Assembly (NCBI GenBank): GCA_963969365.1
Contig: OZ017748.1
Coordinates: 186,001 to 250,000 of the forward strand
DNA length: 64,000 nucleotides
From: Asterochloris sp. CNOR1
Taxonomy: Eukaryota; Chlorophyta; Trebouxiophyceae; Trebouxiales; Trebouxiaceae
Reading direction: 5' to 3'
The notes under the pieces were generated by a model. It did no database searches and was not told where the DNA came from. It saw nothing but the letters and a program-made list of their open reading frames with translations. This document shows, piece by piece, positions 1,012 to 64,000 of the stretch (positions are counted from its first letter, which is position 1; each line of letters begins with the position of its first letter). A program made the translations under genes and the position numbers.

Positions 1012-1050
1012 GACCTAAGCACTAGGTCAAAAAACCCTAGCGCGCCAAAG
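1012..1050 (+). promoter_or_regulatory. Telo-box/E2F-like promoter motif with GACCTA palindrome (copy A)
   Basis: A GACCTA...TAGGTC inverted repeat (1012-1028) is followed by AAACCCTA, the plant telo-box core, and then by GCGCGCCAAA, the complement of an E2F-type TTTGGCGC site. The same order occurs at 52360-52397, where it lies only about 20 bp upstream of the recombinase ATG. In this copy a LINE fragment now separates it from the ATG at 1923. In plants these two motifs mark S-phase and replication genes. That they work here is an inference. Confidence 0.5.
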
Positions 1051-1341
1051 CTGCGCGTACAGACTGGGCGATACCTATTGCCCCAGCTCAAGCGAGAGGA
1101 CCGGACATGCCGAATCTGTGAGTCACCGAACGAGATGGAGGATGAAAGCCATGTCCTGCTACACTGCCCAGGACTTGCAGACCTCCGGTCTGCTCACAGC
1201 CACCTGTTTGCAGAGCAGCAGCAGTCGTTGGCAACGCTGTTTAAACAATCACCAAGCCGAGTGGCCACGTACATCAGGGCAGCACTGCTCCAGCACGCAA
1301 ATGTGCTGGGCATCACTGGGGGCACATCTGGGCCTAAATGA
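1051..1341 (+). pseudogene. Reverse-transcriptase C-terminal zinc-knuckle fragment
   Basis: The open frame encodes the stretch LRVQTGRYLLPQL followed by a C-x2-C...H-x4-C motif (CRICES...EDESHVLLHC). This is the typical ending of non-LTR reverse transcriptases, in which an arginine-rich segment precedes a Cys/His zinc-binding motif reading 'EDE-H-LL-CP'. It stops at the TGA near 1339. The polymerase and endonuclease parts are absent because the insertion is 5'-truncated. No function is expected from this fragment. Confidence 0.65.
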
Positions 1342-1901
1342 GGAACAGACACCCTGGGTGACCCCTCTATGTGCCATGATGTGTCCCCAGCTCACCAGCT
1401 GCTGATTAGAGCTCCAATTTCATAGCAATGCGCTAGACTCATCACATGATTGTCTTCCCCTAAGGTCCCCATGCTGAGTTGTTGCTTGGGGTGTGCCGCC
1501 TCGGAGCCTGGTGCCCTGCGAGGGGAAGACTGCTGGCCACAGTCATACCCAAGCAGAACTCTGTCATGACTGCGAAGTCTACGAGCTGAGAGGGCGTGGC
1601 AAGCCAATTAGGGGGGCTGGGCCCCCCCCTGCACCATACATGATCCAGGGTGTTTGCATTCCGGGCAGCAACCTCAGCTAGCAGTCCAACGTGGTGATGA
1701 AGCCCAGCACAGTGCCAAGGCCTGCCATGAGCGCCGGCTCCCTCTTTACCAGCCAAGTACAGTGACCTGCTTGATATGCCTGTACTGCTTCTTTTTGTAC
1801 CCCTACACCTTCAGCAAAGTTCATTGATAGAATGAAATGATCATAGTCCTATGCCCGTGCATTGAGGCTACGGACTTTGAATTTAAATCAATCAATCAAT
1901 C
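1051..1901 (+). mobile_element. 5'-truncated LINE (non-LTR retrotransposon) 3' end
   Basis: The segment starts inside the C-terminal part of a reverse transcriptase (1051-1341), continues through an untranslated region and ends in (AATC)n at 1884-1901. About 245 bp of the untranslated part (about 1646-1890) recurs almost identically at 46604-46850. Comparison with copy B shows the insertion point between ...CGCCAAAG and the bases just before the recombinase ATG, with a possible AAG duplication. 5' truncation and a short tandem-repeat tail are usual for LINE insertions. Confidence 0.65.
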
Positions 1902-1922
1902 AAGCTCCCCAGATCTATCTTC

Positions 1923-4909
1923 ATGCAGCACTACCAGGTACCATCTGCTGAGTACAGCAGCTACATCAACCATGTCATCAGCCTGGGGCTTGCTGAGGAC
2001 CACATTGCACAACTGCGTGCCAGCTGCTCCCCAAATTGCCCACCTTTCCTTAGAGCGGCCATTGATCAAGCCTGCAGACACCTGTCTGGACTGGTGGATG
2101 ATCTCCAGCCAGTGCCGGCCTCTGCCCCTGGTGTGCACAGTTTAGAGACTTTGGGCCAGCAGAATGGAGCACCAGAGGCAGCAGTTGGATTGGCAGCAGC
2201 CATGCCTAACATTCCTCAGCAGGAAGCTTGTATCCTACAGCTCAACCAGCTCATCAATGCGTGTCATGCTGCGGCTAAGCCACAAAACACAGTACAGGCT
2301 GAAAAATCAGCTGCCAAGCTCTGGAGCGTAGGCGCTGCATGGCCTTCACTCCTGTTCTCATGGCGCCCTTGAGGCTTCCAAGGCCATGTCACTCACACAC
2401 ATGTGGTCCTGCAGAGATGCTGTGAGCAGGAGGCGCACCGGTACCCTGATGGCGACCTCATGTCTCAGGCCAAGATCCTTGAGTTCTCGATGTGGCTTGT
2501 GGATGAGGCAGTGCAGCAGAATGGTGCTTGCTACTCGTTCAGCAGCGTGGGTTGAGAGGCCCCTCCACTGCTGTATCTGAGCTGCGCTCATGTCCTGCTC
2601 TCACCAATCTTTGGCCTGGGGCATACAGTGATTATCTAAGCCACCTCAAGGAAGTCCGCAGAGAGCAGTACTCACAGGGCCGCATCACCTCAGATGTACC
2701 TGCACCCCTGGAGATCCAGGCAGTTAGGCATTTGCTCCGTGCACGTGGCAGGGAGATGCAGGCTGAGAATCTCACTGCGCAAGTTGCCGCTCAGGTGGGT
2801 GTCGGCCTGGTCAGAGCGCCTTGTGCAAACAGAGTGATGGCATGTCTGACTCCAGCTTGTTGCTTGCATCTGCAGGTGGATGCTGCACTGAGCGCAGGGC
2901 AGCTTCGCCAGTCCCTGCAAGCAGCTTTCCAGCAGAAGCAGTGGCAGTGGGCCTATCTGCTGAGGATGGCAATGACGTTCATGCCAGCCACACTGGGCCG
3001 CTCTGATGACCTGCGCAAGCTTCCCTGGAGCTGCCTGGCACTGAGGACGCAGGATAACGTGGGCCCATTGCCCTCTGTGGCAAATCCTCTTTGGTAGCAT
3101 GCAGGGAAAGACTGTCAAACCTGGACAGGTGGATATTCCTGGTGTCGTCAGGTATTCGCATTCATGGTGTCAGACGCAGTTGGGGAGTGTGCTGCAGTGT
3201 GTTCTCAGTCATTATGCCTCCTCTGCCACAGGTACCAACACCATCGCATCTGTCCTCAGGCAGCGCTTGCCGACCTGGCTATCGCCACCTTCCACAGGGG
3301 CATCAAACTTGAGGATCTAGCCAAGTTCATTGTTGCCGCCCCTAGCATGCAGGGGAACCAGCCCATGAGTGGAGAGACTCTCAACGTTCACCTTCAGCAG
3401 GCTTTTGAATTTGTTGGTGAGCCAGTGCATTAATGCCGCAGCTTTTGGACACGGCTATCGGTGACATCTGTGGCTTGTTACACTGCAGGCGTGCCCTGTG
3501 GCAGGCTTGATGGGTACTCAGCTGAAGGGGAGGTCAGCCACAAATTCAAGAAGCATGGTGTGGAGGCGGCTAAGAGCGTGGGCATCAACAAAGCGGAGAT
3601 CAAGATGGCGGCGAGGTAGGTAACTCAGGCCATGCTGTGCATTTCGACCCGTATTGTCCCCAGCTGGCTGACCATTGTTTTGCCTTTGCAGGCATGAGTC
3701 CGACACCACAGACTCGTACTGCATCTTTGACCCGGACACAGCCCACAGGCTGGCTGGTTGGGGACGGGAGTGGCATGAGAATCATCGTTTGGGCCAGGCT
3801 GAGTTCAAGGTAAGGTCACTGCAGTGCCAGTGCTTCTCACACAAATCACAATATTGGGGGAGGGGGGGACTGATCTGATTGTCTTCTGCAGGCTGAGGAG
3901 GATGTGCTGGACCGCATCATCCCAGGCTTGACAGTGCTCCTGCGCCAAGTTGGCATGCGATGCCACCCTGCACATCCTTTGCTGGCGCCCATAAGGGCCA
4001 TCGACCACCTGCGACAAGTGTTTGTGCAGAATGCCAGCTTGAGAAGTCAGTCATATGGGGACCGGTGGCTCCACACTATCCTGCTAGCCGCCGGCCGCCT
4101 TCTGCAGAGCGCTGTGGGCATGCAGCTGCGGCAGGAGACGTGGGACAAACACGTTGCTGCTGAGGCGGTTCTCAGGGACAGGAAATTGTTGTTCACCAAC
4201 CGATCGGTGAGCGCTGCGGCCCCTAGGTGTTGTAGTCAAACATGCATTGCTCTGAACCCTTGCCCTTCCATGTCGCAGGCTTTCTTCTTCAAGACGCTGG
4301 GTGGAAAGGAGGCCACGCCTCTGGCCCCAGTGGTGATGCTGCCTCAGGTGCCTCTTGCCAGTGTCCAGCCCCCAGCATCAGCCAAACCCATCCCATGAGT
4401 GCCTCTGGCTTCACAGGCCAGCTATGGAGTTACTGTGCCGCCTCAGTCCCTCAGTGCGCTGCGCGCCTCGGATGAGAGGGACTCCTCTTTGTTCGAGAAG
4501 CAGGTGTGCAGTCAATTGCCTTTCAGCTTGAGCGCCTGTGTACTAGTCAGACTGTACTCTCCCTTGTGAGCTTCAGGTCTGGAAGCATTCAGATTTTCAA
4601 ACAGTCCCAGAAGCATCTGAGGCGTTCTCCAAGATCTCAGCGGTGCCGTCAGACTTCCGTAGATGGCCTGGCAGCAAGAAGGAAGCAAGGGCCAGCAGCA
4701 CGGCCTTCTCAACAATCAAGAATGGCCTTGCTGCTGAGGTCAACAACCGCATGACTGCCTTGGGAAGCACCATGGCTGCTGTTGTCGGGGCTGTATAAAT
4801 GGAACGTGAGCGCATCCCCGCCACCAGGACAGTCAGCTCACTGCAGCAGCTATGCAGCAAGTACAGCAGTGAATCCAAGCTGCTTGGCAAGCGTAAGCAG
4901 AGCGGTTGA
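1923..4909 (+). pseudogene. Crypton-type tyrosine recombinase, copy A (decayed)
   Basis: Ten exons match copy B: 1923-2327, 2415-2550, 2629-2794, 2876-3151, 3232-3416, 3489-3615, 3692-3809, 3892-4206, 4279-4503 and 4577-4909. The product, about 760 residues if intact, would be a tyrosine recombinase cutting and joining element ends through a Tyr-DNA bond. Catalytic landmarks are the first Arg in LGRSDDLRKL (exon 4), the HRICPQAALADLA segment (exon 5), SHKFKKHG where H-x-x-R is expected (exon 6) and the Tyr of TDSYCIF (exon 7). The C-terminal exon resembles GCR1_C, the DNA-binding domain usual in Cryptons. Copy A is broken. Exon 4 has a +1 shift giving a TAG at about 3095, exon 9 has a TGA at about 4396, exon 10 has a TAA near 4795, and the exon 2 donor is altered. 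A LINE fragment separates it from its promoter motif. Confidence 0.7.
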
Positions 4910-4968
4910 GCAAGCCGCTGATTATTTGCTGATCTGCCTTGACAATTTCTGCCGCCGTTTCCCTGCAC

Positions 4969-5058
4969 AAGTCACATTTCTCTGCCGGAAGTCATATCTT
5001 ACTGAACAGGGTAACATTTCATCAGAAAGTCAGATTTCACTCCACAAAATGACATCTC
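4969..5058. repeat. Five iteron-like 12-mers at about 20-bp spacing (copy A)
   Basis: Variants of AAGTCACATTTC start at 4969, 4989, 5009, 5027 and 5047, i.e. spacings of 20, 20, 18 and 20 bp. They lie in the spacer between the convergent recombinase and HUH genes and are conserved in position in copy B (55466-55556). Regular spacing near two helical turns suggests a set of protein binding sites, as iterons are for Rep-type HUH proteins. Which protein binds is inference. Confidence 0.6.
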
Positions 5059-5070
5059 ACGCAGGGGGGC

Positions 5071-5085
5071 AAGGCTGACAGGCTT
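5071..5085. repeat. Short hairpin next to the iterons (copy A)
   Basis: AAGGCTGACAGGCTT can fold as a short stem (four of five pairs plus a loop). In copy B the equivalent at 55569-55583 is a perfect inverted repeat. It sits about 13 bp beyond the last iteron in both copies. Confidence 0.4.
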
Positions 5086-5317
5086 GTCGCCTGAGAGACT
5101 ACACTTGATACACTCCTTTTCTTGGTCTACATGAATCGATGATCTACATCCCCGCGTAACCCTTTTCTCTGGGCCATTTCATGTTCCTGGCTACCCATGG
5201 TGTACAACCCTATTTCACTACACTTGAACTTCACTTTGAAGATATGAACCTGAGCAAGCTGGCCCAAACAACACATGTCACACATGTGGTGGCTTTTGGG
5301 ACCTGGAACTCCACGAA

Positions 5318-5588
5318 GAATGCATCCCGTGAAGAATGCATCTCAAAATCAGCGTCTACGAGACGGTTTGTTTTCACTGTCCCCTTATTTCACCATCAGG
5401 GGTAACACTTGTGAAAGTTTGACAGCCCAGAGAAAGAAGGTGAAACAAGAGCACTTCAAAAGGAACATTGCGGAAGTTCCCGCAATAGGGTGAAGATGAA
5501 GGAAGCCACAAGTGAACGAAGCGGAACAATGCCATATCATGCGGAAGATCGGGGAAGGCCTCTGTTCTCTGAGTGGAAATGGTTACAC
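5318..5588. other. Copy-A-specific insertion with a 7-bp stem hairpin
   Basis: The spacer in copy A matches copy B up to 'TTTTGGGACCTGG' and again from 'TACACTTAAATCCCTGG'. The roughly 270 bp between have no counterpart in B. The insert contains ATTGCGG (5467-5473) and CCGCAAT (5480-5486), a perfect 7-bp stem with a 6-base loop. It has no coding potential and could be a small non-autonomous element. The direction of change (gain in A or loss in B) is not certain. Confidence 0.45.
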
Positions 5589-5751
5589 TTAAATCCCTGG
5601 TGGCAAAAGAGGACCTCCTAGGGACTTAAAAAGGGTTGCACTTTCTGCATCTGTTTCAAAGTCATACAATGTGATTACTTGGATGCACTTTCACACCTAC
5701 CTTGTGACGCGGTGATTGAAACATGATCATGATCTTGTAAATGAGCTTGCA

Positions 5752-6411
5752 TCATCTGGCCTCCCTCACATCAGCAATGACAGCTGCCGGCAGATTGTAA
5801 CTGACACTTGCCCTTGCTGGCGCACGGTCAGCCTTCCATCCAGGAGGTAGGCGCTTTTTGAACAGCGCAATGAAGCCCTCCTCATAGTAATGCTTCAGCA
5901 TGGGAACTGTAAGCGCGCTGGGGCCAGACTGCAACTTCCTGATTGGCTCAAGGAGCCTGTATCGGTAAAAATCAGGAGGGTGTCCCTCCACAAACTTGTG
6001 AGTGACCACCACTTCTCGTTTCAGGCAGCGTCCATCGGGCCCTTGCAGGTACTTCATGGAGCGCTTCCGCCCCCAAGTCTGCTGCTTCTTTGGAAGGACC
6101 TTGAACTCCTCCTCATCATAGGCAGGGTTGGGGATGTCATCCTCCACGCGCTTGGGCACTTTACCAAAGGAGCCCGGCACCTTTGACAAGTCATATGTGG
6201 TACAACCCAGCCTCTCTGCAGCAGCTTCCAGCAGAGGCTCCAAATCCTCATAGGATTTGCACTGCAATTCTGGAGTCCCTGCCTTTATGGCCGCCATTGC
6301 CACTTGCACTGGGCCTTGTACAACATGTCTTCCAGCGCTCTTCCTGGGGCCTCCATGTGAGATGTCCCATTCTCCACAGGACATGAACTCCACTGTCCTG
6401 TGCTCAGGATC
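5752..6411 (-). pseudogene. HUH-endonuclease gene, C-terminal remnant (copy A)
   Basis: About 220 codons from KDPEHRTVEF to the stop at 5752 match the C-terminal two thirds of the copy B HUH protein at clearly related sequence (DPEHRTVEFM, KYLQGPDG, TVPMLKHYYEEGF). This part is intact in copy A and lacks the nonsense codon found in B. The N-terminal catalytic domain with the His-Val-His site is missing, because homology ends at about 6411 and repeats begin. The open frame continues to 6465 through unrelated sequence. The function of this C-terminal domain is unknown. It ends 840 bp from the convergent recombinase gene. Confidence 0.6.
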
Positions 6412-6459
6412 CTTGATTGTGGTGGTGCTGGCACAATGCACCTCTGTCTGCTTCAAAAC

Positions 6460-42300: not shown

Positions 42301-45300
42301 GTCTGTCTCAGGTGCATGCAAAAGTGCAGGCATTCTGCCAGGCACAAGTGCCATGCTTATGTGGAACGTCCATCAGGTATGCCGTCAGCAACCTGCCAGA
42401 AGTTGCTCAAGCAGTCTGCCTCATGGTAGCAGAACCCTGCACTAGTCAGCGGCATGCACCCATGTTGTTGCGCATACCAGTAGCAGCAAAGGAGCAAAAG
42501 GCAGATGCTGACTTTTGGGAGACAGCCTTTGCCAAGGAAGCACCTAATGATCTGTAGGGGTGCCTCAGAGGCATGGGGACCGTGCACAGCTGACCTGCTG
42601 TTTTGCACCTAGTGGCCAGCCACCTGGGCTGCTTCAGACACGCTCTCAAGCCCGATGCCTCCCGGACAATGCATCCCTTCAAAGCAGACAAGGGCTCAGG
42701 TCCTGAGCTTGCAGAGCATCAGAACAGAGTCGCTCTTCGCCGTTGCAGACTTGCAAGAGGGTTGTGACTCCTATTGGCATTGCAACTGCAGGCATGGCTG
42801 ACACACCTGGAGGATGCCACATTGGACGTGGACACCGGCTCTAAAAAGCAGCGGCGCCACTCCCGTGTCAAGGTGCACCGGGGCTTCCACACCAGCTGGC
42901 GCCTGAACGGGATGAGGGAGAAGGTGGTGGACCTGATCAGGAGCGAGGTCTGCCCCGACGAGGCTGCTGCACGGCGCATGAAGGTGCTGTTCACAGGTGA
43001 GGGGTGGCCAGCCGGGGATGTGCTGCAGGTCTGTCTTTGCGTGCACAGCTTTGTCCACGCTGGATTGTTCTTGTTCCTCCAGGACTTATGTGGCGCTGCA
43101 CCTCAGCACAACACAACATGTGTCTATAGGAAAAATCAGCTCTGTATATAGCTCAGTATGGCCACTGCAGCCTTCTTGACATGCGGCCCAGCTGGCCCAG
43201 GGCGCCTGTGACGCTGCATTGTAAGGCGCTCATGCATGCTGGCAGTGCTTTTGTCAGGTAGTCAGGCTGAGCCTGGGCGCTTGCGGCGCTGCAGATGGCC
43301 CCCAGACAGTGTGTGCCTGATGCAAAACACTCGACATCCACACTGGCAGAAAGACCAATCATTGACTCTGAGGCTGTCCAAGTGGCTCTACCAGGAAGTT
43401 GCGGCGTAGCACGGCTGCCTGTCCTAGCTCGCAGGTTGCGTGCAGCACTGCCCTGCTCGCTGCACGCCGTCTTTGCCGTTGTCGAATCGGCGCATCGGCC
43501 TCAGCAGAGGTCAGAGTGCAGCTGTGCCTGCTGCCCTGCAGGTCATTCCCTGGGCGGGGCCCTCGCAATGCTGGCGGCCTTTGACCTGGCCCCTGTCTTC
43601 CCCTGGGGGTCGGTGGAGGTGCACACCATTGGGGCGCCGCGGCCCGGCAACGCTGCTTTTGCCAAGGTCCGTTGTATGGTCAGGCCCTGGCAGCTGCATG
43701 CACATCACTAGCAAATATATGCCTTAGGTTTCAAGCCATAGCTTGGCGATGCTGCTGTGGCAGAGCTGCGCTATAGCCACAGGCCCCCAGGTAGTTGGGT
43801 GTATTACTTTTGCACAGTTCATAGGCTCTTCATGCACTTTGGTTGGAACCCCCACCTCCCCAGATTTGGCTGATGGCAGGTGATAGGCTGTCTTGCGTGT
43901 GGTTAGACTGGGACACATGCTGGCGTGGGCCAGCAGAGGCTGGTGCAGCATGAGCCTGCCAAGGTGTGGGTGCTCACAAAGCGCACTAGTGTTGGCGCTT
44001 GCTGCTGGCCAGACCTTGGCTGCTCAACGAGCTGCAGAGGCTTTGTGGGGCCTGTTGTGGAGGCATGCCCCTGCCCGGATACATGTGGGCTCAGGCCCAG
44101 CCTGCCTGCATGTTGACGCCTGCTGTTATAGAGACACTGCCAGGGTTGAGATGAAGGCACGCCTCAGACTGGTTGCCTGTGGGCGCCTGCTGGTGCAGCA
44201 TGTTTGTCAACGCTCAGTCAAAGGACGAGCAGCAGGCTGGCTGCTTGATGGCGCATGCTGGTTCGGCTGATGTCTGCCCCGCCTGCGTAGGACAAGAAGC
44301 AGACCCGCTGCCTGTGGGTGCCTGCGCGTGCAGCGCGTGTCTGTCAGGGTTGGCTTGAAGGTCAAGCAGGAGACTGCCTACTTGGGGACGCATGCAGTCA
44401 AGGGCTGCACCTGCCAGGGCACCCTGAGTGTGTGACCCCAGAACAGGAAAGAAGGGTCACATCGGGGCAGTGCGCTGTGACTACCTGGGCTGCAGCTGCA
44501 GAGCCACAGGGGTTGAAGCTAGACTTGGTGTGTCTATCCCTCATGTGCTTCCTGATCGGCATCACATCTCTAGTGGAATTCTGCCTTGTGCAAGGCTTCA
44601 AAACCCCTTACGCATTGCAGGCTTACAATGAGCGCCTCCCAAGCACGTGGCATATCATCAACCACAAGGTGAGGCCACATGTCTGCAGAACCCACAGTCG
44701 CTTCAACACCGCCAGCCTAGGGCTGGCAGCTGCTTGACAGCATTGTGTAGCCTGCTGGTGACCTCTGCAATCTCACCTGCTTGCATTTGCCAAGCCAGCA
44801 TGGCACCGCTTTCAGCCCAGTACTTCCCTGTTTGGGCAGTGACTGAATATGACCAGTCTCTGGTTTCCAGTATCAGGGGTTTCTAGATCTGGCTCCGACA
44901 GAGGGCAGACAAGTCTCTGCCTGCAGGACCCTGTTCCCCATATGGGCAAGTTTTGGAAGGCCTACAAGAGGTGGGCTGTGTCCAATTAAATGCTGAAGCC
45001 ACCGAGGCAGGATGCCAGGCACATCATGCTGCTGTGCCCACCATCATCCTGTCATGCTGCCCTACACCCAGCAGACACACTTTTGCTGCAGAGAAGCCAT
45101 CTGCTGGGTCTACTTCCAGCTCTGTGTGTTAGCTGCGGACGATCTGTTGCATGTGGATGATCTGCTGTCTGCAGGCCGGGGCAGCGGGTGCTCATAGATG
45201 CCCAGGGCGACATGATTGTCAGGTGTGCTGCCCCTGTGCTGGACTGCTGTCACGAAGGTGCACAGCAGTTGCGTGATCAACATCACCGCGCTTTCCTGGT

Positions 45301-52025: not shown

Positions 52026-52285
52026 GCTTTGCTTCATACCAGTGTGCCTGGCCTCCAGCACATCAGTAGTTAGCTTCATTTCAGGTTGAGCATCAGGTTC
52101 TTGCAGTCAGCTCGGTGCTGATAAGTGTTGGCTCATGTGAGCAAGTCCTCAGGTGTCTGGTCGAATTCTGAGCCAAGTCTAGTTAGAAGAAGTTTATCTG
52201 ATGGTACTAGCGGCCTTCTTGAGCACATGTTCGCATTTGGCATGCCAACTCCTCCTGCTTCCCAATTTATACCCTGGGTGGGGGT

Positions 52286-52356
52286 GCAGCAACCAAGGAA
52301 TCGAACCTGGGTCCCCAGACTTGCAGTCTGGTGCTTTACCACTAAGTTATTGCTGC
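52286..52356 (-). tRNA. tRNA-Cys (GCA), possibly a pseudogene or SINE head
   Basis: On the minus strand the ends GCAGCAA and TTGCTGC form a perfect 7-bp acceptor stem. The anticodon arm is CCAGA-CTGCAAG-TCTGG, perfect, with anticodon GCA. An A box (TTAGTGGTAA) and a B box (GGTTCGATTCC) are present. The D stem has one A-C mismatch and the T stem (CCAGG/CCTTGG) needs a bulged base, so it may be slightly decayed. Length is 71 bases. Its 5' end abuts the left end of composite element B. Confidence 0.6.
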
Positions 52357-52359
52357 CCC

Positions 52360-52397
52360 GACCTAATTTCTAGGTCCAAAAACCCTAGCGCGCCAAA
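52360..52397 (+). promoter_or_regulatory. Telo-box/E2F-like promoter motif with palindrome (copy B)
   Basis: GACCTA...TAGGTC (52360-52376) is followed by AAACCCTAGCGCGCCAAA, which joins a telo-box core to an E2F-type site, 20 bp before the recombinase ATG at 52417. Conservation with copy A (1012-1050), while surrounding sequence has changed, supports a role in the element. Confidence 0.5.
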
Positions 52398-52416
52398 GTG
52401 CCCTAGATCGACCTTC

Positions 52417-55404
52417 ATGCAGCACTGCCAGGTTCCATCTGTTGAGTACAGCAGCTACATCAACCATGTCATCAGCCTGGGCTGGCTGAGGACTACATTG
52501 CACATCTGCATGCCAGCTGCTCCCCAAACAGCCCCCCTTCCCTCAGAGCGGCCATTGATCAAGCCTGCAGACATCTGTCTGGACTGGTGGATGATCTCCA
52601 GCCAGTGCCAGCCTCTGCCCTTGGTGTGCACAGTTTAGAGACTTTGGGCCAGCAGAATGGAGCACCAATCACAGAAGCAGCAGTTGCCTTGGCAGCAGCC
52701 ATGCCTAACACTCCTGATGAGGAAGCTCGTATCCTACAGCTCACCCAGCTCATCAATGCCCGTCATGGTGCGGCTAAGCCACAGAACACCGTCCAGGCTG
52801 AAAAACCAGCTGCCAAGCTCTGGAAGGTAGGCGCTATATGGCGTTTACTCCTGTTTGTATGGCGCTCTTGAGGCTTTCAAGGCCATGTCACTCACACACA
52901 AGTGGTCCTGCAGAGATATTGTGAGCAGGAGACGCTCTGGTTCTCTGATGGCGACCTCATGTCTCAGGCCAAGATTCTTGAGTTCTCGATGTGGCTTGTA
53001 GATGAGGCAGTGCAACAGAATGGTGCTCGCAACTCGTTCAGCAGTGTAGGGTGAGAGGCCAATCCACTGCTGTGCCTGAGCTGCACTCAAGATCCTGCCC
53101 TCCCTAACTTTGGCCTAGCATGCAGTGATTATCTATGCCACCTCACGGAAGTCCGCAGAGAGCAGTACTCACAGGGCCGCATCACCTCAGATGTACTAGC
53201 ACCCCTGGAGATCCAGGCAGTTAGGGACTTGCTCCGCGCACGCGGCAGGGAGATGCAGGCTGAGAACCTCAATGCGCAAGTGGCAGCTCAGGTGGGCATT
53301 GACCTGGTCAGAGCATGTTGTGCAGACAGAATGATGGCGTGTCTGACTCCAGCTTGTTGCTAAGCATCTGCAGGTGGATGCCGCACTGAGCGCAGGGCAG
53401 CTTTGCCAGTCCCTGCAAGCAGCTTTCCAGCAGAAGCAGTGGCAGTGGGCCTATCTGCTGAGGATGGCAATGACGTTCATGCCAGCCACACTGGGCCGCT
53501 CTGATGACCTGCGCAAGCTTCCCTGGAGCTGCCTGGCACTGAGGACGCAGGATAACGTGGGCCCATTGCCCTCTGTGGCAATCCTCTCTGGTAGCATGCA
53601 GGCAAAGACATTCAAGCCTGGGCAGGTGGACATTCCTGGTGTCGTCAGGTATGCACCACCATGCTGTCAGACGCAGTTGGTCAGTGTGCTGCAGTGTGTT
53701 CTCAGTTATGCCTCCTCTGACACAGGTACCGAGACCATCGCATCTGTCCTCAGGCAGCGCTTGCCGACCTGGCTGTCGCCACCTTCCACAGGGGCATCAA
53801 ACTTGAGGATCTGGCCAAGTTCAATGTTGCCGCCCCTAGCATGCAGGGGAATCAGCCCATGAGTGGGGAGACCCTCAACATACACCTTCGGCAGGCTTTT
53901 GATCTCGCTGGTGAGCCAGTGTGTCGATGCTACAGCATTTGGACATGGCTGTCGGTGACATCTGTGGCGTTTTACACCGCAGGCGTGCCCTGTGGCAGGC
54001 TTGATGGGTACTCAGCGAAAGGGGAAGTCAGCCACAAGCTTAAGAAGCATGGTGTGGAGGCGGCTAAGAGCGTGGGCATCAACAAAGCGACGATTAAGAT
54101 GGCGGCAAGGTATGCAACGCAGCCCATTGTGTGCATTCTGAACAGGATTGTCCCCAGCTGACCAGTGTTTTGCCTTGCAGGCATGAGTCCGACACCACGG
54201 ACCTGTATTGCATCTTTGACCCGTACACAGCCCACAGGCTGGCTGGTTGGTGACGAGACTGGACAGAGAATCATCGTCTGGGCCAGGCTGATTTCCAGGT
54301 AAGGTCTCCGCAGTGCCAGTGCTTCTCACGCAAATCACCAAGATTGGGGGAGGGGGGGACTGATCCACTTGTGTTCTGCAGGCCAAGGAGGATGTGCTGG
54401 ACCGCATCATCCCAGGCTTGACAGTGCTCCTGCGCCAAGCTGGCATGCATTGCCACCCTACACATCCTTTGCTGGCATCCTTACAGGCCATCGACCACCT
54501 GCGGCAGGTGGTTGTGCAGAATGCCAGCTTGAGGATTAAGTCATATGGGGACCAGTGGCTCCGCACCATCCCGCCAGCCGCCAGTTGCCTTCTGCAGAGC
54601 GCTGTAGGCAAGCAGCTGCGGCAGGAGACATGGGACAAACACGTTGCAGCTGAGGCAATTCTCAGCCAAACACTTGAGTTCTTCACCAACCCAATGGTGA
54701 GCGCTGCGGCCCCTAGGTGTTGTAACCAAGCATGTATTGCTCTGAACCTTTGCCCTTCCATGTCGCAGGCTTTCTTCTTCAAGGCGCTGAGTGGAAGGAG
54801 GCCACGCCTATGCCTTCTGCCCCCGTGGCGATGCTGCCTCAGGTGCCTCTTTCTGGTGTTCAGCCCCCAGCATCAGCCAAACCCATGCCGTTGGTGCCTC
54901 TGGCTTCAGAGGCCAGCTATGGCGTTACTCTGCCGCCTCAGTCCCCCAGTGTGCTGAGCGCCCCAGATGAGAGGGACTCCTTTTGGTTCGAGAAGCAGGT
55001 GTGCAGTCAATTGCCTTTGAGCTTGAGAGCGCCTGTGTATTGGTCAGATGTTTTCCCCTTGTAAACTGCAGGTCTGGAAGCTCTCAGATTTCAAAACAGT
55101 CCCAGAAGCATTTGAGGCGTTCTCCAAGATCTCAGTGGTGCCTTCAGACCACTGCAGGTGGCATGGCAGCAAGAAGGAAGCAAGAGCCAGCAGCATGGTC
55201 TTCTCAAGATTCAAGAATGGCCTTGCTGCTGGGGGCAGGAACCGCATGGATGCCCTGGGAAGCACCATGGCAGCTGTTGTCGGGGCTTCAGAGATGGAGC
55301 GCGAGTGCATCCCCGCCACCAGGACAGTCAGCTCACTGCAGCAGCTATGCAGCAGGTACAGCAGCACTTCCAAGCTGCTTGGCAAGCGTAAGCAGAGCGG
55401 CTGA
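52417..55404 (+). pseudogene. Crypton-type tyrosine recombinase, copy B (decayed)
   Basis: Exons: 52417-52826, 52914-53050, 53126-53291, 53374-53648, 53726-53910, 53983-54109, 54181-54298, 54382-54696, 54769-54998 and 55072-55404, all with GT-AG borders. Exon 4 holds LGRSDDLRKLPW with the first catalytic Arg. Exon 5 has HRICPQAALADLA. Exon 6 has SHKLKKHGVEAAKS, where a Lys stands at the second-Arg position of H-x-x-R. Exon 7 holds the nucleophile candidate DLYCIF. Exon 8 (DRIIPGLTVLL...AIDHLRQV) and exon 10 (VWKLSDFKTVPEAFEAFSKI) fit the pre-GCR1 and GCR1_C regions of Cryptons, where the latter binds DNA. Lesions are a one-base loss near 52480 in exon 1, a TGA at about 54251 shortly after the catalytic Tyr, and a one-base loss in exon 9 near 54800. 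The lesions differ from those of copy A, so the two copies decayed independently. Confidence 0.7.
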
Positions 55405-55465
55405 ACATGCCTTCAATTGTTTGCTGTAACTTGCATTGACAATTCCTATCGCCATTTCCCTGCAC

Positions 55466-55556
55466 AAATCACATTTCTCTGCTGAAAGTCGTGTCTTACT
55501 GAACAGTGTAGCATTTCACTGAGAAAGCCAGATTTCACTCCACAAAATCTCATCTC
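55466..55556. repeat. Five iteron-like 12-mers at about 20-bp spacing (copy B)
   Basis: Variants of AA(G/A)TCACATTTC start at 55466, 55486, 55506, 55525 and 55545, i.e. spacings of 20, 20, 19 and 20 bp. The phasing kept from copy A, despite base changes inside and between the units, argues that it has a function. They lie 60-150 bp after the recombinase stop. Confidence 0.6.
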
Positions 55557-55568
55557 ACGCAGAGGGGC

Positions 55569-55583
55569 AAGCCTGACAGGCTT
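55569..55583. repeat. Perfect hairpin next to the iterons (copy B)
   Basis: AAGCCTGACAGGCTT: AAGCC and GGCTT pair across a five-base loop. It is 12 bp past the last iteron, as in copy A. Confidence 0.45.
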
Positions 55584-55986
55584 CCCCCTGAGAGACTACA
55601 CTTGATACACTCTCTTTTCTTGGTCTACATGAATCGATGATCTGCCTTCCCGCGTAACCCTTTTCTCTGGGCCAATCAAACATTTCTGGCCAGCCACTGC
55701 ACAACAAAGTTCCACTACACTTGAACTCCACTTGAAGACATCAACCTGAGGGATGCAGCCTGACCAAAACATGTCACACATGTGGTGGCTTTTTGGACCT
55801 GGCACTGGCTACACTTGAATCCCTGGTGGCAAAAGAGGACCTCCTGGGGGCTTGAAAAGGGCTGCAGTCGCGCAATCTTTGCATCTGTTACAAAGTCATA
55901 TGGTGCGGGTATGTGGGTGCGCTTTCCACACCTGTGCTGTGGCATGGTGATTCAAACTACTTCATGATCTTGTCAACAAACTTGCA

Positions 55987-57060
55987 TCATCTGGCCTTCA
56001 TCACAACAGCAATAACATCTGCCGTCAGCTTGTAACTGACACGTGCCCTTGGTGGCGGACGACCAGCCATCCATCCAGGAGGTATGTGCTCCTTGAACAG
56101 GGCCATGAAGGCCTGCTCGTAGTAATGCTTCAGCTTGGGAACTGTGAGCATGCCAGCGCTGGTGTTAGACTGCAACTTCCTGATTGGCTCAAGGAGCCTG
56201 AATCTGTAAAAATCAGGAGGGTGTCCCTCCAGAAAGTTGTGTTAGACCACCACCTCCTCTTTGAGGCTTTGCCCGTCTGGCCCCTGCAAATACTTCATGG
56301 TGCGATGCCGCTTGCTGGTCTGCTCCTGTTTGGGTAGGGCCTTGAACACCTCCTCATCATAGGCAGGGTTAGGGACAAGGTCACCCTTCACACGCTTGGG
56401 CACAGTATTAAAGAAGCCCGGCAACTTCGGCAAGGTACATTTGGTGTCACCCACACTCTCTGCAGCAGCTTCCAGCAGACGCTCAAACTCCTCATACGTC
56501 TTGCACTGCAACTCAGGAGTCCCTGCCCTGATGGCCGCTATTGCCACTTGCACTGGCCCTTGTCGTCCAGAACCATTCCTGGCACCTCCATGTGAGATCT
56601 CCCAATCTCCACCGCACATGAACTCCACTGTCCTGTGCTCAGGATCCTTTGGGCGGTGGTTTTCATGGTCGTTACTGTTCAGGTACAGCGACCTGTAGTC
56701 GCCAAGCCCCTTCAGGCCGTGAGCTGGTCCAGCGTCTGCTTTCAACTCGTTGAACAACATCACGTCCACAGACCCAGCCTCTGTGCCAAAGATGAGTGAC
56801 ATGGAGGCAGCAATACGGGCTTTGACAGCGCTCTTGGTCTTGGGAGCCTCAGACATTACAAGGAAGTGTACATGCTCGTTGCCTGGCTTGTGGTGAAAGG
56901 TGCCGGAGTACTTCTTGATGTTGTGTCCAAAGACATCCTGCAGAGCCGCCATGCTCTGGCGCAAGATTTGAGGCAGCTGGTCTTCATTGGTGGTGATGTG
57001 GTTGACAACAATCTCAAAGTTGCGGTCTTGCCTCTTGCTGCTGCCTGGCTTAGACTTCAT
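55987..57060 (-). pseudogene. HUH-endonuclease (Rep-like) with one nonsense codon, copy B
   Basis: From ATG at 57060 a 272-codon frame is open to a TAA at 56242-56244; homologous coding sequence then continues in the same frame to a stop at 55987, so the parent protein had about 358 residues. Residues 62-68 read EHVHFLV, an H-x-H with a hydrophobic centre, i.e. the metal-binding HUH motif. It is preceded by NFEIVVNHITTNED as a motif-1-like strand and followed by DYRSLYLN (Tyr 122 or 126), the candidate nucleophile, single as in Y1 enzymes. HUH enzymes nick one DNA strand and stay bound through Tyr; they drive rolling-circle-type replication or transposition. Size, one Tyr and absence of a helicase suggest a Replitron-like rather than a Helitron enzyme. 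That assignment is from memory of the group and needs a structure or profile comparison. Copy A has the C-terminal part without this stop. Confidence 0.6.
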
Positions 57061-57313
57061 CCTAGCCTGCTTTCCTAAAGCTAATATTGAAAGGCTTTAA
57101 GTAGGCACACAGTCCTGAGCTCGTTGCGGGGCGTCACATAGCTTAGTACAGGTCTGCATCGATCAGTGCATAAGCGATGCATTGCACTGCACCGCATGCA
57201 GAAGTCTGAAGTACGCACGGAGACCAATATTGCGAGTGTGAGAAGCTCTGTCAGAAGCTGAGCTATGAGGTCGGATCCAGTGGGCCTGGAGGACCTGAAG
57301 TAACGCTACTAGC

Positions 57314-60300
57314 ATGAGCGAAACAGGTCTCCACCATGTTATCAACATGGGCAGGGCAAGGTTGATGGGTTCAGCGATTACACAGCAGGTGGAGAGACGC
57401 TCCTTGCAGCAGGCCCCCCCACTGAGCATCAAGACTCAGCCTGAGGAAGGCCTGGAAGGCTCCTCTGCAGAGAGCAGCGCCAGCCCTGGCTCTCCAGATG
57501 CGCAGCCCCACTCCCCTCGCAAGGGGCGGCGAGGCTCAACTCACGAGCAGATCGAGCTGTCCAAGGTCTCAGGCACCTCCTCTGCCGCCAGTGGCTCAGG
57601 CTTCTCCAGGAGCCAGCACTTCAACCCAGACCAGGACGCCATCCTGCGATTGGAGTGCCTCTCGGGGCGCAGGCTCAAGGTGGGACAGCCTCTGGAGAGC
57701 GGGTCAGTTGCAGCCTGACCAGAATCTGGGGGCAGCAGCAGGCTTTGCGCTGCCAGTTGGCCAGACACCACAGTGCCCCCTACCCCAGCTAGTCAGGCGC
57801 GACTAACAGCAGACTGAGTTTCAGACAGTTCCCAGGAGCTGTACAGGCATTGCACTGTTGCAAGGCGTCAGATTGTTGCCTGTCGCACCTCTGAGCGACC
57901 ACCTGCTCAGTGTGAGGGCTGGAGCTGAGTGGGGCAGCAAAGCTCTCACACCTGCCTGCAGCAGCAGGAGACAAGGTGCCCCTCTGTTCAGGACAGCTCT
58001 TACCTCTGCATCGCAATTGCAGGTCGTGATCTGGTTCAAGAACCTCATGAGGATTGGGTCCAGCACCTTCGTCATAGTCATATCCATATTGCAGGGCACG
58101 GTGAGCTTGTGCATGCTGCTGCCTGACAGTGGGGCCCACTGCCAACGTCTGGACCTTGCGTCCCAGCTGCAAGCACAGCTTACCTGGCACACCACAAGAC
58201 ACACCTCATCAAGCCAGGGAGTGTGAGCAGGTGCATCCTGTGCGCACCCCTCAAGCCTCTTGATAGCACTGAGGCCACCACCTTGTCTTGCCAGCAGCGA
58301 TAGCTCAGGCAGCATTCCCCAACCGGTGTTGCTCCTCTAATTGTGCAGAGCCACCTCTACCTGCGTGCCCCGCCCCTGCTGTGGTCCAACATTGGTGTGG
58401 GGGCAGGCTGCACAGCGCTGCTGGTGGTGGGACTGGCGCGCCTCGCTCACAGCTGCCAGAGGGTCAATTGTGAGCAAAAGTACTGGTCCAAGCGCCGTTG
58501 GAGATGCATGGCCCTTGTCAGCATGTCCATAGCGATTGAGGTGGGCCAGAAGTCATGCCACCGTCCATTCTGTGTTGGACACTGTGGGTTGCCGCAACCT
58601 CCTGCAGGGTTGTGAGCTGCACGGCGCTGCTCTGGGGCACTTTGCAGACAGCTGGCGGAGGGGTGTTGTATGGTGTGGTGCTGGTCCAAGCATCCCCTCA
58701 AGTGCATGACCCTAGTCGGTGTGTTCACCTCATTAACAAGACAAGTTCTGAGACCAGACATCCCGCTCGGACGTTTGCATGGCCCTTTCCTTGGGCTTGT
58801 GCCCAACAAGTGGGGCAGTGTCATTGGATTGCATCCCTGCACTGGCAGATCAGAGCAGCAGCTGGAGATGCGCAATGAGAGGCTCATGCTGCTTGGGGTC
58901 AGAAACGCAGTTCTGCTGATAGGCTTTGGGCATCCAGGCCACACACACGCCTGTGGGCAGAGAGTGTCAGCTACATGCAGCAGGTCTACTCCACTCTGCA
59001 GGGCTTCAGCTTGCTTGGCAGCGCCCCTAGTGTGCCACCACACTTACACAAAGGCGCCTCATCTCTAGCAACGTGCTGCAGGCAGAGTTTCCTCGATAGC
59101 AATATACTCATGCGTCCATGTTTCTCTGCAGCTTCTGAATCTCTTTTTTTGGCTGGCCTCGGCCAGCGTCGGCCTGCACGGGTGCAACTTGAGCAACTCC
59201 TTTTGCCCCTGGTGAGACTCTGGTGCCAAAGTAGCCCTCGGTAACAGCCTGGCTTCACCTTGCTGCTCCGCCACACTGCCCCTGCTTGAGTTTGCTTCAG
59301 CAGGGACTGCAGATCGTCTGCTCCTGTCACCTACACAGTCTGCCATGTTGAGCTACTGACACCAGCCTAAAAAAACCCAAAGTGCACTCAACTGCAGGAG
59401 CTTCTTCATACAGTGGACCTTGTTCAACTGTTTGCTGGTCTTAAACCTGATGATGACCCACAACGGCTGCGCCTGGACGGACAAAACTGGCAACCTCAGG
59501 CAGCACCTCTGGTCCTGCAGTGAGCGCCTAGACCAACACCTCAACATTGCTACCAGTCATAACTATAACAACCAGCAGCAAACATTTGTTCGCCTGGCAT
59601 CTGCCTTCAGCAGGCTCGCCTGCAGCATTGAGGCCCGCCAGTTGCAGGCAAGGCTCTCTGAGCCCTGCCTTGCACCAGCCTGGCGGTGTGACTGCTGCAG
59701 CATGCGCCTCAAAGGCAGCACCTGGTAGCCCAGGCGATGAATGCCAGCGGCTGTCTGCACATTCAAAGCTGAAGCCCGGATGCTCACTGTGCAGGCAGTG
59801 AGCTGGCAAAGACGGAGAGACGATGTGCCCTCGTGCTTGATGCCCCCTGGCGGGCGCACTTGCCAAAACTCTTCTGGTGGTGAGCTGCATGCTGCAGACC
59901 AATTTATTGGGGACGGGTTGCTGCTGCTAACCTGCCCCCGCGCCTACCTGCACCCATGATAAGTGCTGACAATTCGTGTGCCTGGCGTAGGTCCATCCTG
60001 CAGGTGGCCAACTGCCTGCGCCTGGCTGCGAGCCTGGACTGGCCTTACACTCATCGTCCAGGTGACAGCCCCTCATGCTGCCCTGCTCCATGACAGGGCC
60101 TGTCAGTGGCCGGATTACCACCAGTCTGGCATGGCATGTTTGCTCGTGCGTGTGTTACCGCTGGCAGGTGCAAGGACTTCTTTCTTTTGCTCTGTGTTGG
60201 GCTGCCTGGGGTTGGTCAGGGTAAGCATCAAGATTTGGCAGTGCTGATGAAATGACATGAGTCTGTGTCGCTGCAGTACCAAGGCAGTACCTGTTCAATG

Positions 60301-63300
60301 ATTGCCTGGCCCTGGCATGGCAGTGCATCGGCACCACGGGTTTGGGGTTGGCCCACCGGATTGTAGGCATTGTCGCGCTCTCTCTGTACTTTCTCCCCCA
60401 TATGAATTACGTCAGGATGGGGCAGCGCGACCTGAGGCAGATGCCCTATAGCGCTTACAGGTGGGTGGCAAGGGTGCCTCAGGTCTTCTCCATGTGTGCA
60501 GTGCTGCGCCTTCAGGCAACGTGGGGTGGCCTGGTGGGCGGATGCAGTCAGCGTCCTGCTGCTGCTCAAAGGCAGTTCTGCTGCTGCTGCTGCAGCTGTT
60601 AGCACAGCTGCCCACTACCTGCAGAAACAGCACATCGCACACTGTGCTCTGTGTGCAGCAGCACTGCCAGACAACTCGGCTGTGCATTGCCTCAAACAGT
60701 GACACAAGCTACACAGGCAGCCAAGGCTCCAGAAGGCTGTGCTTCATCTAAGTTTGACAATGTAGTGGGTGTCGTTCGCTCAAACTTTGCTTTCTAACCT
60801 TGCAATGACATTGAGTCCCTCGTCTTCAGACTTGGGCGCACCCTGATGAGGATCCACGTCTCCAATGACATGGGCTGTGGAGGATATGTCATGCTCTGCG
60901 TTGGCCTCCTGGTCAGCATCATCATTGAGGACAGGCCCTGCATCGCCTGCTTACAGGTGGGCGCTGTCTCTGTTATGTCAGCTGCTTGGCATTGTACAGG
61001 GGTCTTGTCCTCCAGCTGGTCGGTGCCATGACTGGGCGACCCTGGCATCAGCTGCTCCCTGGTGAGCGTCGCATCTAATATCCCAGCTGGTTGGCTTGTA
61101 CGACCGCAAAATAGGAGAAAGTTTTCCACAGCCAGAACTGCCGGGGCGGGCCTGCCAAGCTGCCTCCAGGCGAGCGCTGTGTACTACAGTTCAGCTGATT
61201 GACATTGTACAAAGCCCTGTTCTCCAGTGTCTTAGTTCTGGACTGGAGCATGAATCCTGTGTCAGCAGCTTCAGGCTCTGGTTATTGGCTTCTGTCAGGG
61301 CCTGCTGGCGCCTGGGGGGGCCTGCCAGGCTTGCATTGGGTTCTTTCTTCCACTGGCCAGCTGGCTCATGAAGGGAACGGAGACAGCAGTCACCCTGATC
61401 TCTGTGAAAGATGGACCCATGTCAGGCAGCAGCTGGTCTGCAAAGCATTGCAGCGTTAGACAATTTGCAGGTAAGTGCTGGTGAGGCAGCACGCCCCTCT
61501 TCACCCTCGTGCAGGCCTTTCGGAAGGGCTGCAGCCTCTTGCATTGCTCGCCACAGACCTGTGCGGCCCCTGACACAGCTGTCTCCCCTGTGCAGCCATT
61601 CCTTCTAGCTGCAATGCACATCAAGGTGACGTCGCTCGCCATTGTTGGCGTGTACCTCTTTGAGCCCATCTCTACCAGCCCAGAGGACCCTCAGATTCTG
61701 CAGGTGAGGCTTCTGCATCGAGGATTGCAGCCAGGAGGCCTCTTACATCAGCAGCCAGTTGCAGCCTCAACAAGTGGCTACTTGCATGTCTTCTGACTAA
61801 GGAAAGGTCACGGCACTCTCTGCAAACAGCACTGCATTGTTGCGAGTGGGGTGGAGGGGGGCTGGGGGCCAGTGTGATACGCATGTGCAGGCAGAGCCGG
61901 GCGGTCATGGAAGTGACCCTTCATGACACCCCTGCTGATGCTCGGCACACTTGCCAAACTGTCCAGAGAGCGCTTTGGCAATCTGCCTTGGGCATGATTA
62001 CGTGGATCGTCACACAGCTTGTCATGCTGTGCGGGCATCCTGCTGTTCTTTGTGCAACAGGTTTTGTGAGAAGTGTTGTGGTGGCCTTGTGTGCCTGCCA
62101 TGCAAGTTTGAGGGGCTCCCTGATTGCCATCCACAGCGTGATTCTGCCCTGCAACTCTGCTTGAAGCATGCAAATCTTATCCTGCTGTTGGGTCAACCTC
62201 TGCGTTGGGACCTGTGCTCAGCAGCACTGAAGGCCTCCATGTGTGAGCCCCAGAGATCTGGCTGCAGATGGTGGCTTGAAATGAAGACTGTCAATGCAGT
62301 GCTGAGGCAGCCTTCTGTGCTTGCCGGTGCAGATCTGTGGCTGCAGATGTTGTGCTGACTCTTTCTTAAAGCGTGGTAAGGCAGCCTTCTGTGCCTGCAC
62401 GTGCAGATCTGGCTGCAAATGTTTGCCTGGTCAGAGGCCACCAAGCCACAGGTGCTGTGGCAGCGTGCCACTGGGGCATCTCATCAGCGCAGTTTGATGG
62501 AGCGGGAGCCCCTGTTCTGTATGGAGACAGCCATCAAAATGCTGTACTTCTCAGGCATGGCATATGAGCACGACGAGGTGGGTGGTGCAGCAAACGACTG
62601 GTGCAAAGTGTCAGTATGACCTGCAGATCTGCGTGTGGCTGTGGTACACTGGTGGAGCGTCTGCATCGAGACAGCCCTGATCAGGTGGACTGTGATGCAT
62701 TGCGCTGAGGGCATGCCTGCTGCAGGCAAGCGGGAAGCTGCTGTTTGTGCCCAGGCTGTTCTGCAGAAACAGCTTTGGTGGGGGCGTCCTGCGGCTGTTC
62801 AGACACAGCCCCCGCCTGCAAACACCCAGCCGCCTGCAGGTCTCATCTGCAGACACTGCCCTGCCACAGGTTGGGCATAGCTGCGCTGCATTTGGTGGGG
62901 CGGGGGGGTGAAGGGGGGGGGGGGGGGGGGGGGGGTCCACATGGCACTGGATTGTCATCAGGGGCACATTACGCTGCATGTCCACTGCGGCAAGGCAGGG
63001 AGGATCCAGGCTGTCAGGCGCAGCTGGACTGCACTCTCCTTCATGCTGTATTCACATTTGTGCTTTGGCATGCTGTAACAGGTGTGCCTGCTACCGTCTG
63101 CAGTGCAAAGGGTTGCTGGCAGGTGCTTTGGCATGCTGCAACAAGCAAGCCTGCTGCCGTGTGCAGGGCGACAGGGAGCTCAAGCTGTCAGAGGGACCGC
63201 CATGCAGCTGCCTGAGCACTGATACTGCCTGTAGAGACTAAGCACAGGCTGCCTTCAGTAAGTACAGCGCAGCTGTATGAGCAAGAGTGATCACCCCCAT

Positions 63301-64000
63301 GCCATCATGCTGCCTACAGGGCAGGGGAGAGTCAAGGCAACACTGCCCTGCAATGCTCACAAGGTCCTTCTACCCTCCTGAAGATGCCTGCAGCGGCAGG
63401 ATCAGTTCCTTGAACCTTGAGACACTGGGACACAGCTTTTGAGCAGATTGGTTCACTCCCCACCTGACGCTGCCTGCAGGGAAGAGAAGACCTGCAGCTG
63501 TCAGAGGACACCGCCATGCAGCTGTATGGGCTGAAGCAGCTGCGCGTCATCAGGGAAGGGAAGCTGGACACAAAGTGCATCCTGGCCTGGAGTGAGGACA
63601 CAGTTGTGCTGTCCTTTCGTGGGACTGCGTCCACCCGGAATGCCATCAGCGATCTGCAGGTGTGAACCGGTTGTGACCGTCAGGCTCTCACGCTGATCAG
63701 CCATGTGCAGGTCTGTCTCCAGTGCATGCGAACAGTGCAGGCATTCTGCCAGGAAGAAGTCATGTGCTTTCATGGGACGGCGTCCCACCGGGAGTGCCGT
63801 CAGCAACGTGCTGGACACTGCTCAAGGAGGCTGCCTCATGGCACTTCAAGAACCTGCACTGATCAACAACCCTGCAGGCAGGTTTGTCGTGCATGCAAAC
63901 AGCAGCAAAGAAGCTGAGCTGCTGCAGCGTTGTTAGAGGGCCATGACACCCTTTAGCACTGGCCTGTTCAACTGCAGGCCTGGCTCATACACCTGGAGGA
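57314..64000 (+). CDS. Multispanning class-3 lipase, paralogue 2 (runs off the window)
   Basis: Same exon order as 36384-46119: 57314-57679, 58023-58100, 58349-58540, 59132-59211, 59398-59519, 59795-59879, 59991-60061, 60277-60460, 60830-60956, 61515-61703, 62407-62577, 63480-63659 and 63978 to beyond the end. Several membrane segments (IVGIVALSLYFLPH, VMLCVGLLVSIII) precede the start of the hydrolase domain (LMEREPLFCMETAIKMLYFS, then VVLSFRGTAS). The catalytic Ser exon lies outside the window. Protein similarity to paralogue 1 is high in all exons, but introns differ, so the duplication is not recent. No frame break is seen in the exons listed. The start codon is placed by alignment with paralogue 1. 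About 11 kb of mobile and broken sequence separates the two genes. Confidence 0.75.
62297..62406 (+). repeat. Duplicated acceptor block (lipase 2)
   Basis: 'AGGCAGCCTTCTGTGC...GTGCAGATCTG(TG)GCTGCA' occurs twice, so two candidate acceptors with similar following bases lie at about 62331 and 62406. Only the second leads into the long conserved exon. Confidence 0.55.
62913..62935 (+). repeat. Poly-G run of 23
   Basis: An unbroken run of 23 G (62913-62935), preceded by a shorter G run (62902-62908), in an intron of lipase 2. The exact length may be a sequencing estimate. It could form a G-quadruplex. Confidence 0.85.
63740..63830 (+). pseudogene. Decayed duplicate of the FRGTAS exon end (lipase 2)
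   Basis: 'CTTTCATGGGACGGCGTCCCACCGG' style sequence with GTGCCGTCAGCAACGTGCTGG echoes the end of the exon at 63480-63659 (FRGTASTRNAISDLQ). The reading frame is lost. A comparable echo occurs after the same exon of lipase 1, at about 42330-42410. It looks like an old tandem duplication of exon plus flank. Confidence 0.45.

Follow-up and report, generated by a model that had tools for sequence, protein, structure and literature searches.

A DNA transposon family encoding a tyrosine recombinase and an apparent HUH endonuclease in the green alga Asterochloris sp. CNOR1

As a rule, eukaryotic DNA transposons are classified by a single transposition enzyme, and a many-copy family that keeps two unrelated enzymes under selection does not fit this scheme. 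The pairing of a tyrosine recombinase (YR) integrase with a Rep protein is known from AICEs, bacterial integrative elements that are prokaryotic, conjugative, and site-specific on both sides. HUH enzymes of the IS200/IS605 kind recognise the sequence 5' of each cut, namely the target flank on the left and the element's own last bases on the right. Among eukaryotic elements, Cryptons are characterised by a YR with the residues R-H-R-Y and by terminal direct repeats of 4-6 bp. Ndc10 is said to derive from CryptonF, and MarCry-1_FO is a precedent for a Crypton joined to a second transposase, there a DDE transposase (partial text of PMC3212892). Replitrons, known from green algae, are reported to be 0.9-4 kb long and to make target duplications of 2-8 bp (partial text of PMC10741241). 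Here, positions 186,001 to 250,000 of contig OZ017748.1 (C3) of Asterochloris sp. CNOR1, a stretch of 64,000 nucleotides referred to as the window, were analysed against the genome of 56,383,464 bases in 21 contigs. The window holds two broken copies of a DNA transposon family that has dozens of copies and carries genes for a YR and an apparent HUH endonuclease. We assign a probability of roughly 0.55 to the joint reading that the two genes spread as one unit and that the HUH enzyme inserts it.

The family resembles Cryptons (CryptonF) in its eukaryotic, intron-bearing YR gene, in a weak match to the NDC10_II profile, and in a short repeat at or near both ends. It differs from them in the HUH gene, in a lysine (K409, HxxK) in place of the second arginine, in a one-sided flank preference, and in the lack of a GCR1_C domain, to which three YR copies gave no match up to E 5 (Pfam). 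The 6-bp repeat, TAGGTC, is terminal on the 3' side and sits 11 bases inward on the 5' side. Replitrons share an HUH enzyme without a helicase and short direct repeats, which in Replitrons measure 5-11 bp and lie at the termini or close to them. Unlike them, the family showed no target duplication in 24 flank pairs, is 4.8-11.3 kb long, and carries a YR; this separation is drawn from the published description of Replitrons. The lack of target duplication and a potential 3' stem-loop recall Helitrons and IS91. In contrast to Helitrons, there was no helicase match in the HUH frame of 354-359 aa, the flanks show no insertion between A and T, and the 3' end is GGTC rather than CTRR. A specific left flank, the element's own sequence at the right end, an apparent HUH fold, and ties in the structure search are shared with IS200/IS605, which are prokaryotic, have a different gene layout, and gave no sequence match. 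No eukaryotic element with YR and HUH was found in the literature searched, which did not include the original Replitron description, and an earlier description elsewhere is possible.

Pairing of the two genes across the genome

Copy B in the window (locus L001; 52360..57154, + strand; 4795 bp) starts with GACCTA, ends with a TAGGTC-type sequence (here ACAGGTC), and has ends common to other copies. The extent of 52357-57060 given in the original prediction was about 94 bases short at the 3' end. Copy A (1012..6414, +) contains inserted sequence at about 1050-1906 and 5311-5573 and has lost its 3' part. The two copies are 88% identical across 3.4 kb and 80% identical across 0.86 kb. Both have a YR gene (+), a spacer with repeats, and a convergent HUH reading (-). 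The predicted common order and differing flanks were thus borne out, except that the HUH of copy A is a C-terminal part only. The YR gene of copy B (52417..55404, +) is frameshifted; when the 10-exon model of L025 was transferred, all nine GT/AG sites were kept and 16 stops were present. The YR gene of copy A (1923..4909, +) has 20 stops and has lost one splice site. Its predicted motif DSYCIF is found in copy A, while copy B reads DLYCIF. The HUH gene of copy B (55990..57060, -) is open from 57060 to 56245, is closed by a stop at 56242-56244 after 272 codons, and continues as a coding remnant; intact genomic copies reach 354. The HUH remnant of copy A (6004..6414, -) retains residues 138-272 without the HUH motif, so that the predicted EHVHFLV occurs in copy B only. 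Both window copies are therefore broken. The predicted iteron spacer was found in both as 11-nt repeats, (R)CTNCACTTGA, four in copy B (55595..55818, +) and two exact matches in copy A.

The original prediction proposed a search for further copies. At least 62 DNA matches to copy B were found (34 of 161 candidates scored), so the arrangement is not due to chance. The search for HUH gave 137 matches from 138 scored candidates, and that for YR exon 4 gave 101 from 103; these merged into 87 HUH and 90 YR loci. A convergent HUH lay within 12 kb at 69 of the 90 YR loci, using 67 HUH loci, against a chance expectation of about 0.8 by a simple arithmetic estimate. In 43 of these 69 pairs the distance was 2.3-2.9 kb. 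The 5' end pattern was found at 51 sites and the 3' end pattern at 45 sites, and the reversed-pattern controls gave 0. A YR exon was within 3 kb of 43 of the 5' ends, and an HUH was within 2.5 kb of 39 of the 3' ends. Within 15 kb, 19 5'-3' combinations were present, one of which spans two elements, leaving 18 complete elements of 4797-11320 bp with both termini and both genes. In two of them (C6:501094 and C2:1481423), a distance of more than 2.5 kb separates the HUH from the 3' end.

The unpaired loci (21 of 90 YR and 20 of 87 HUH) were inspected in part. Some are fragments, truncated pairs (L139), or deletion derivatives, such as L020, which has apparently lost its HUH. No convergent HUH was found at L024. 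Seven copies considered to be YR-only (L021, L022, L023, L025, L026, L027, and L028) all have a convergent HUH 3.5-8.9 kb further on, past an expanded spacer, and a supposed HUH without YR at C15:168884 is a 5'-truncated pair. The expanded spacer of one long form contains a 215-codon open frame (L117:1722-2366, -) without a Pfam match.

Selection on the two genes and identity of their products

The YR model, taken from L025, has 10 exons and nine GT-AG introns and encodes 762 aa. It is stop-free with all nine splice sites in 4 of 31 copies (L003, L023, L025, and L027). An uninterrupted HUH of 354 aa occurs in L008, L011, L012, L013, and L015; the long forms at C11, C6, and C3 have HUH frames of 371 codons, 359 from the first Met. 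At least 25 near full-length, stop-free HUH copies exist besides the query (111 of 146 candidates scored). Both genes are uninterrupted in L025 (C11) and L023 (C6).

The ratio of nonsynonymous to synonymous substitution rates (dN/dS) of YR was 0.22-0.33 in 11 between-subfamily pairs and 0.16-0.58 in 4 close pairs. For HUH, it was 0.28-0.30 in 19 between-group pairs and 0.23-0.65 in 6 close pairs; two pairs with 6 changes gave 1.53, and one pair was identical. The set includes L010 and L011, each with one altered splice site. Both genes look to be under purifying selection, as if the element needs both, and since the between-subfamily values are well below 1 for both, YR appears to matter too. 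The distances of YR (exons 7-10) and HUH were correlated (Mantel r = 0.897, 0 of 5000 permutations) in the 20 of 32 sequences with enough of both; L010 is a visible mosaic in this comparison.

One of the two genes might be a passenger, acquired by nested insertion or capture and later copied with the other as a block. Such fusions are known, since MarCry-1 consists of a Crypton and a Mariner (partial text of PMC3212892), and the unpaired YR and HUH loci would suit this explanation. However, dN/dS is well below 1 for both genes, the pairing predates the subfamilies, whose differences amount to 10-20%, and a copied block was ruled out as the origin of the copies because their flanks differ. We regard a passenger as highly improbable. 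The common termini, the conserved arrangement and spacing of the genes, the selection acting on each, and their co-divergence across several subfamilies uphold the predicted single mobile unit, and the YR-HUH pair is almost certainly real and spreads as one. No multi-copy family was seen in which either gene stands separately with its own termini. Those relatives that do stand apart comprise a single diverged HUH locus and a single diverged YR gene; neither showed recognised element ends within the sequence read.

For the YR protein, no Pfam match was above cut-off, and NDC10_II was the nearest profile. Residues R277, K313, H406, K409, H432, and Y440 are kept in three aligned copies, with R277, H406, and Y440 placed by eye. 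With HxxK in place of the Crypton HxxR and a sub-threshold NDC10_II match, the label of a Crypton-type recombinase in the original prediction fits loosely. No relatives of YR (query A3) were found in viral contigs by a short peptide-pattern scan. A solo YR-like gene with the same exon order and long introns is present at L141:982-7023 (C9:1199481-1205523); it has diverged, has lost H406 and K313, and has no HUH that was found. Judging from these features, it is perhaps a domesticated host gene.

Motifs, a relaxase match short of threshold, and a structural model of low confidence point to the HUH identity. Among nine aligned copies, HVH is present in seven and the second Tyr of YRSLY in all nine; the C3 motif reads YVH. 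The MobL relaxase model matched the diverged copy L140 at the motif with E 0.0028, which does not reach the curated cut-off. The model of copy B (272 aa, single sequence) has the order strand-helix-strand-strand(HVH)-helix-strand, which is the HUH strand order. IS200-type HUH transposases tie among its ferredoxin-like matches, alongside many unrelated proteins (Foldseek, VIA-align). Sequence searches against solved structures gave no credible match. Short peptide-pattern scans for HUH relatives found none for A2 and A5 in viral contigs and none for A5 in genome contigs. The gene at L140:4972-6096 (C16:1799071-1800195, -) is uninterrupted and 57-64% identical to the family; the 9.9 kb that were read contained no YR match, and the gene itself has no recognised ends.

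It could be argued that HUH alone moves the element and that YR persists because of a different function, such as DNA-binding regulation. The HxxK of the three aligned copies, the proximity to NDC10_II, a DNA-binding centromere protein, and the diverged solo YR gene without H406 and K313 would agree with this. The six residues named above are nevertheless kept in all three aligned copies, and we consider this explanation improbable.

Element ends, target flanks, and the proposed cycle

The 5' end of copy B is a terminal palindrome, GACCTA-ATTTC-TAGGTC (52360..52376, +); this palindrome, GACCTAnnnnnTAGGTC, is present in copies A and B. Its 3' terminal sequence lies at 57126..57154 (+). Flanks were tabulated for 42 of the 51 5' ends and 41 of the 45 3' ends. 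Upstream of GACCTA, the flank prefers TTGCCTYCC, with 23 of 42 matching in at least 7 of 9 places and T before YCC in 36 of 42. The 3' flank is nearly unspecific: A is preferred at +1 (23 of 41), and information is below 0.5 bits at +1 and below 0.35 at +2 to +20. No target duplication was found in the 24 flank pairs over 1152 offsets; the best excess over shuffles was 0.20, for 2-base words off the junction. At copy B, the flank TGCTGCCCC (52351..52359, +) is the 5' end of a minus-strand tRNA-Cys gene, predicted at 52283-52356. The tRNA 5' end is 3 bases from the first base of copy B; hence, the insertion sits at the tRNA 5' end.

A preferred 5' flank, a nearly unspecific 3' flank, and no target duplication favour HUH-type insertion. 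One-sided preference together with the element's own last bases at the right end fits recognition of the IS200/IS605 kind. On these junction sequences, HUH would on balance be the insertion enzyme. The enzyme would nick a single strand following a target that resembles TTGCCTYCC, and likewise following the final bases of the element, TATAGGTC; the candidate cut points are TTGCCTCCC/GACCTA and CTATAGGTC/N. The element would then be joined at the cut target without duplicating it. YR could be a second needed enzyme that processes circles or multimers of the element, with the TAGGTC repeats as one conceivable site; the role of YR as circulariser or resolver is put forward tentatively. Whether a eukaryotic lineage needs both enzymes in one cycle, with single-strand insertion by HUH beside a preferred target and YR acting on a circular or multimeric form, is a proposal to which we give slightly less than an even chance. 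If true, this two-enzyme mode of transposition would be new for eukaryotes, as far as the literature searched goes. The family lends itself to studying how the chemistries of YR and HUH can be combined in a single cycle, and this question is testable because a single genome contains uninterrupted copies of each gene.

The division of labour in the original prediction, with YR inserting and excising and HUH copying, is less well matched by the end structure than insertion by HUH. A related explanation is a YR-integrated replicon, in which excision and integration of a double-stranded circle fall to YR and the start of its rolling-circle copying to HUH, as in bacterial elements with an integrase and Rep. 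It would account for selection on both genes, TAGGTC near the 5' end and at the 3' end, the iteron-like spacer repeats, and the palindromic 5' end. However, a YR inserting a circle would be expected to leave target sequence at both junctions, whereas the 5' flank alone is preferred. The junction pattern TTGCCTYCCGACCTA (at most 1 mismatch) has 44 genomic sites, 21 of them recorded 5' ends, and no bare GACCTAnnnnnTAGGTC footprint was left at the 41 of 44 checked. Of the other 23 sites, 20 were seen, and these were 5' ends of the family, 3' ends, other families, and apparent chance matches. The junction also occurs in families whose interiors differ (L122, L123, L125, L126, and L129; L114 and L120; L121, L132, and L134), and other families keep GACCTA without the 5' TAGGTC. 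We consider the YR-integrated replicon unlikely.

Several observations weigh against insertion by HUH of a two-gene unit. As many as 19 of 42 5' flanks match TTGCCTYCC in 6 or fewer of 9 places, and its reverse complement is found in 4 of 41 3' flanks. The flanks are not all independent: 83 flanks fall into clusters of 9, 6, 4, 4, 4, 3, 3, 2, and 2 plus 46 singletons. Common ends were recovered, but nine 5' flank queries turned up no empty site and led to places occupied by an element, by another family, or by a decayed copy; the insertion point is thus placed provisionally. The YR has HxxK and Cryptons have HxxR. No HUH match exceeded a curated cut-off (Pfam, PHROGs, and NCBIfam), and the HUH model is poor, with a mean pLDDT (predicted local distance difference test) of 44.8 and ordinary ferredoxin-like folds as best structural matches.

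Many 5' flanks (e.g. L043, L037, L039, and L058) are repeat families ending at TTGCCTYCC. For one of these, all six genomic matches stop at an identical position, directly adjoining the element or the 5' end of another family, and the far-side flanks differ. A potential 3' stem-loop has at least 8 of 9 pairs in 23 of 41 ends and 3 of 9 in the window copy. Overall, 84.8% of cells pair, yet covariation was no better than in shuffles.

Related ends and other features of the window

An orphan copy of the family's 3' end was found at L142 (C18:917080-920500), where only about the last 96 bases are common with the YR-HUH family. A junction common to other families and an orphan 3' end are as expected of ends used in trans. 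The interior of L142 is unrelated and includes a repetitive, fibre-like open reading frame, for which two viral contigs gave weak matches (32% over 85 aa). At L135 (C14:180250-180650), a remnant of about 45 bp consists only of the element's two ends. The window also contains a second pair of duplicated blocks, at 36388-42495 and 57315-63914, which are 68-81% identical.

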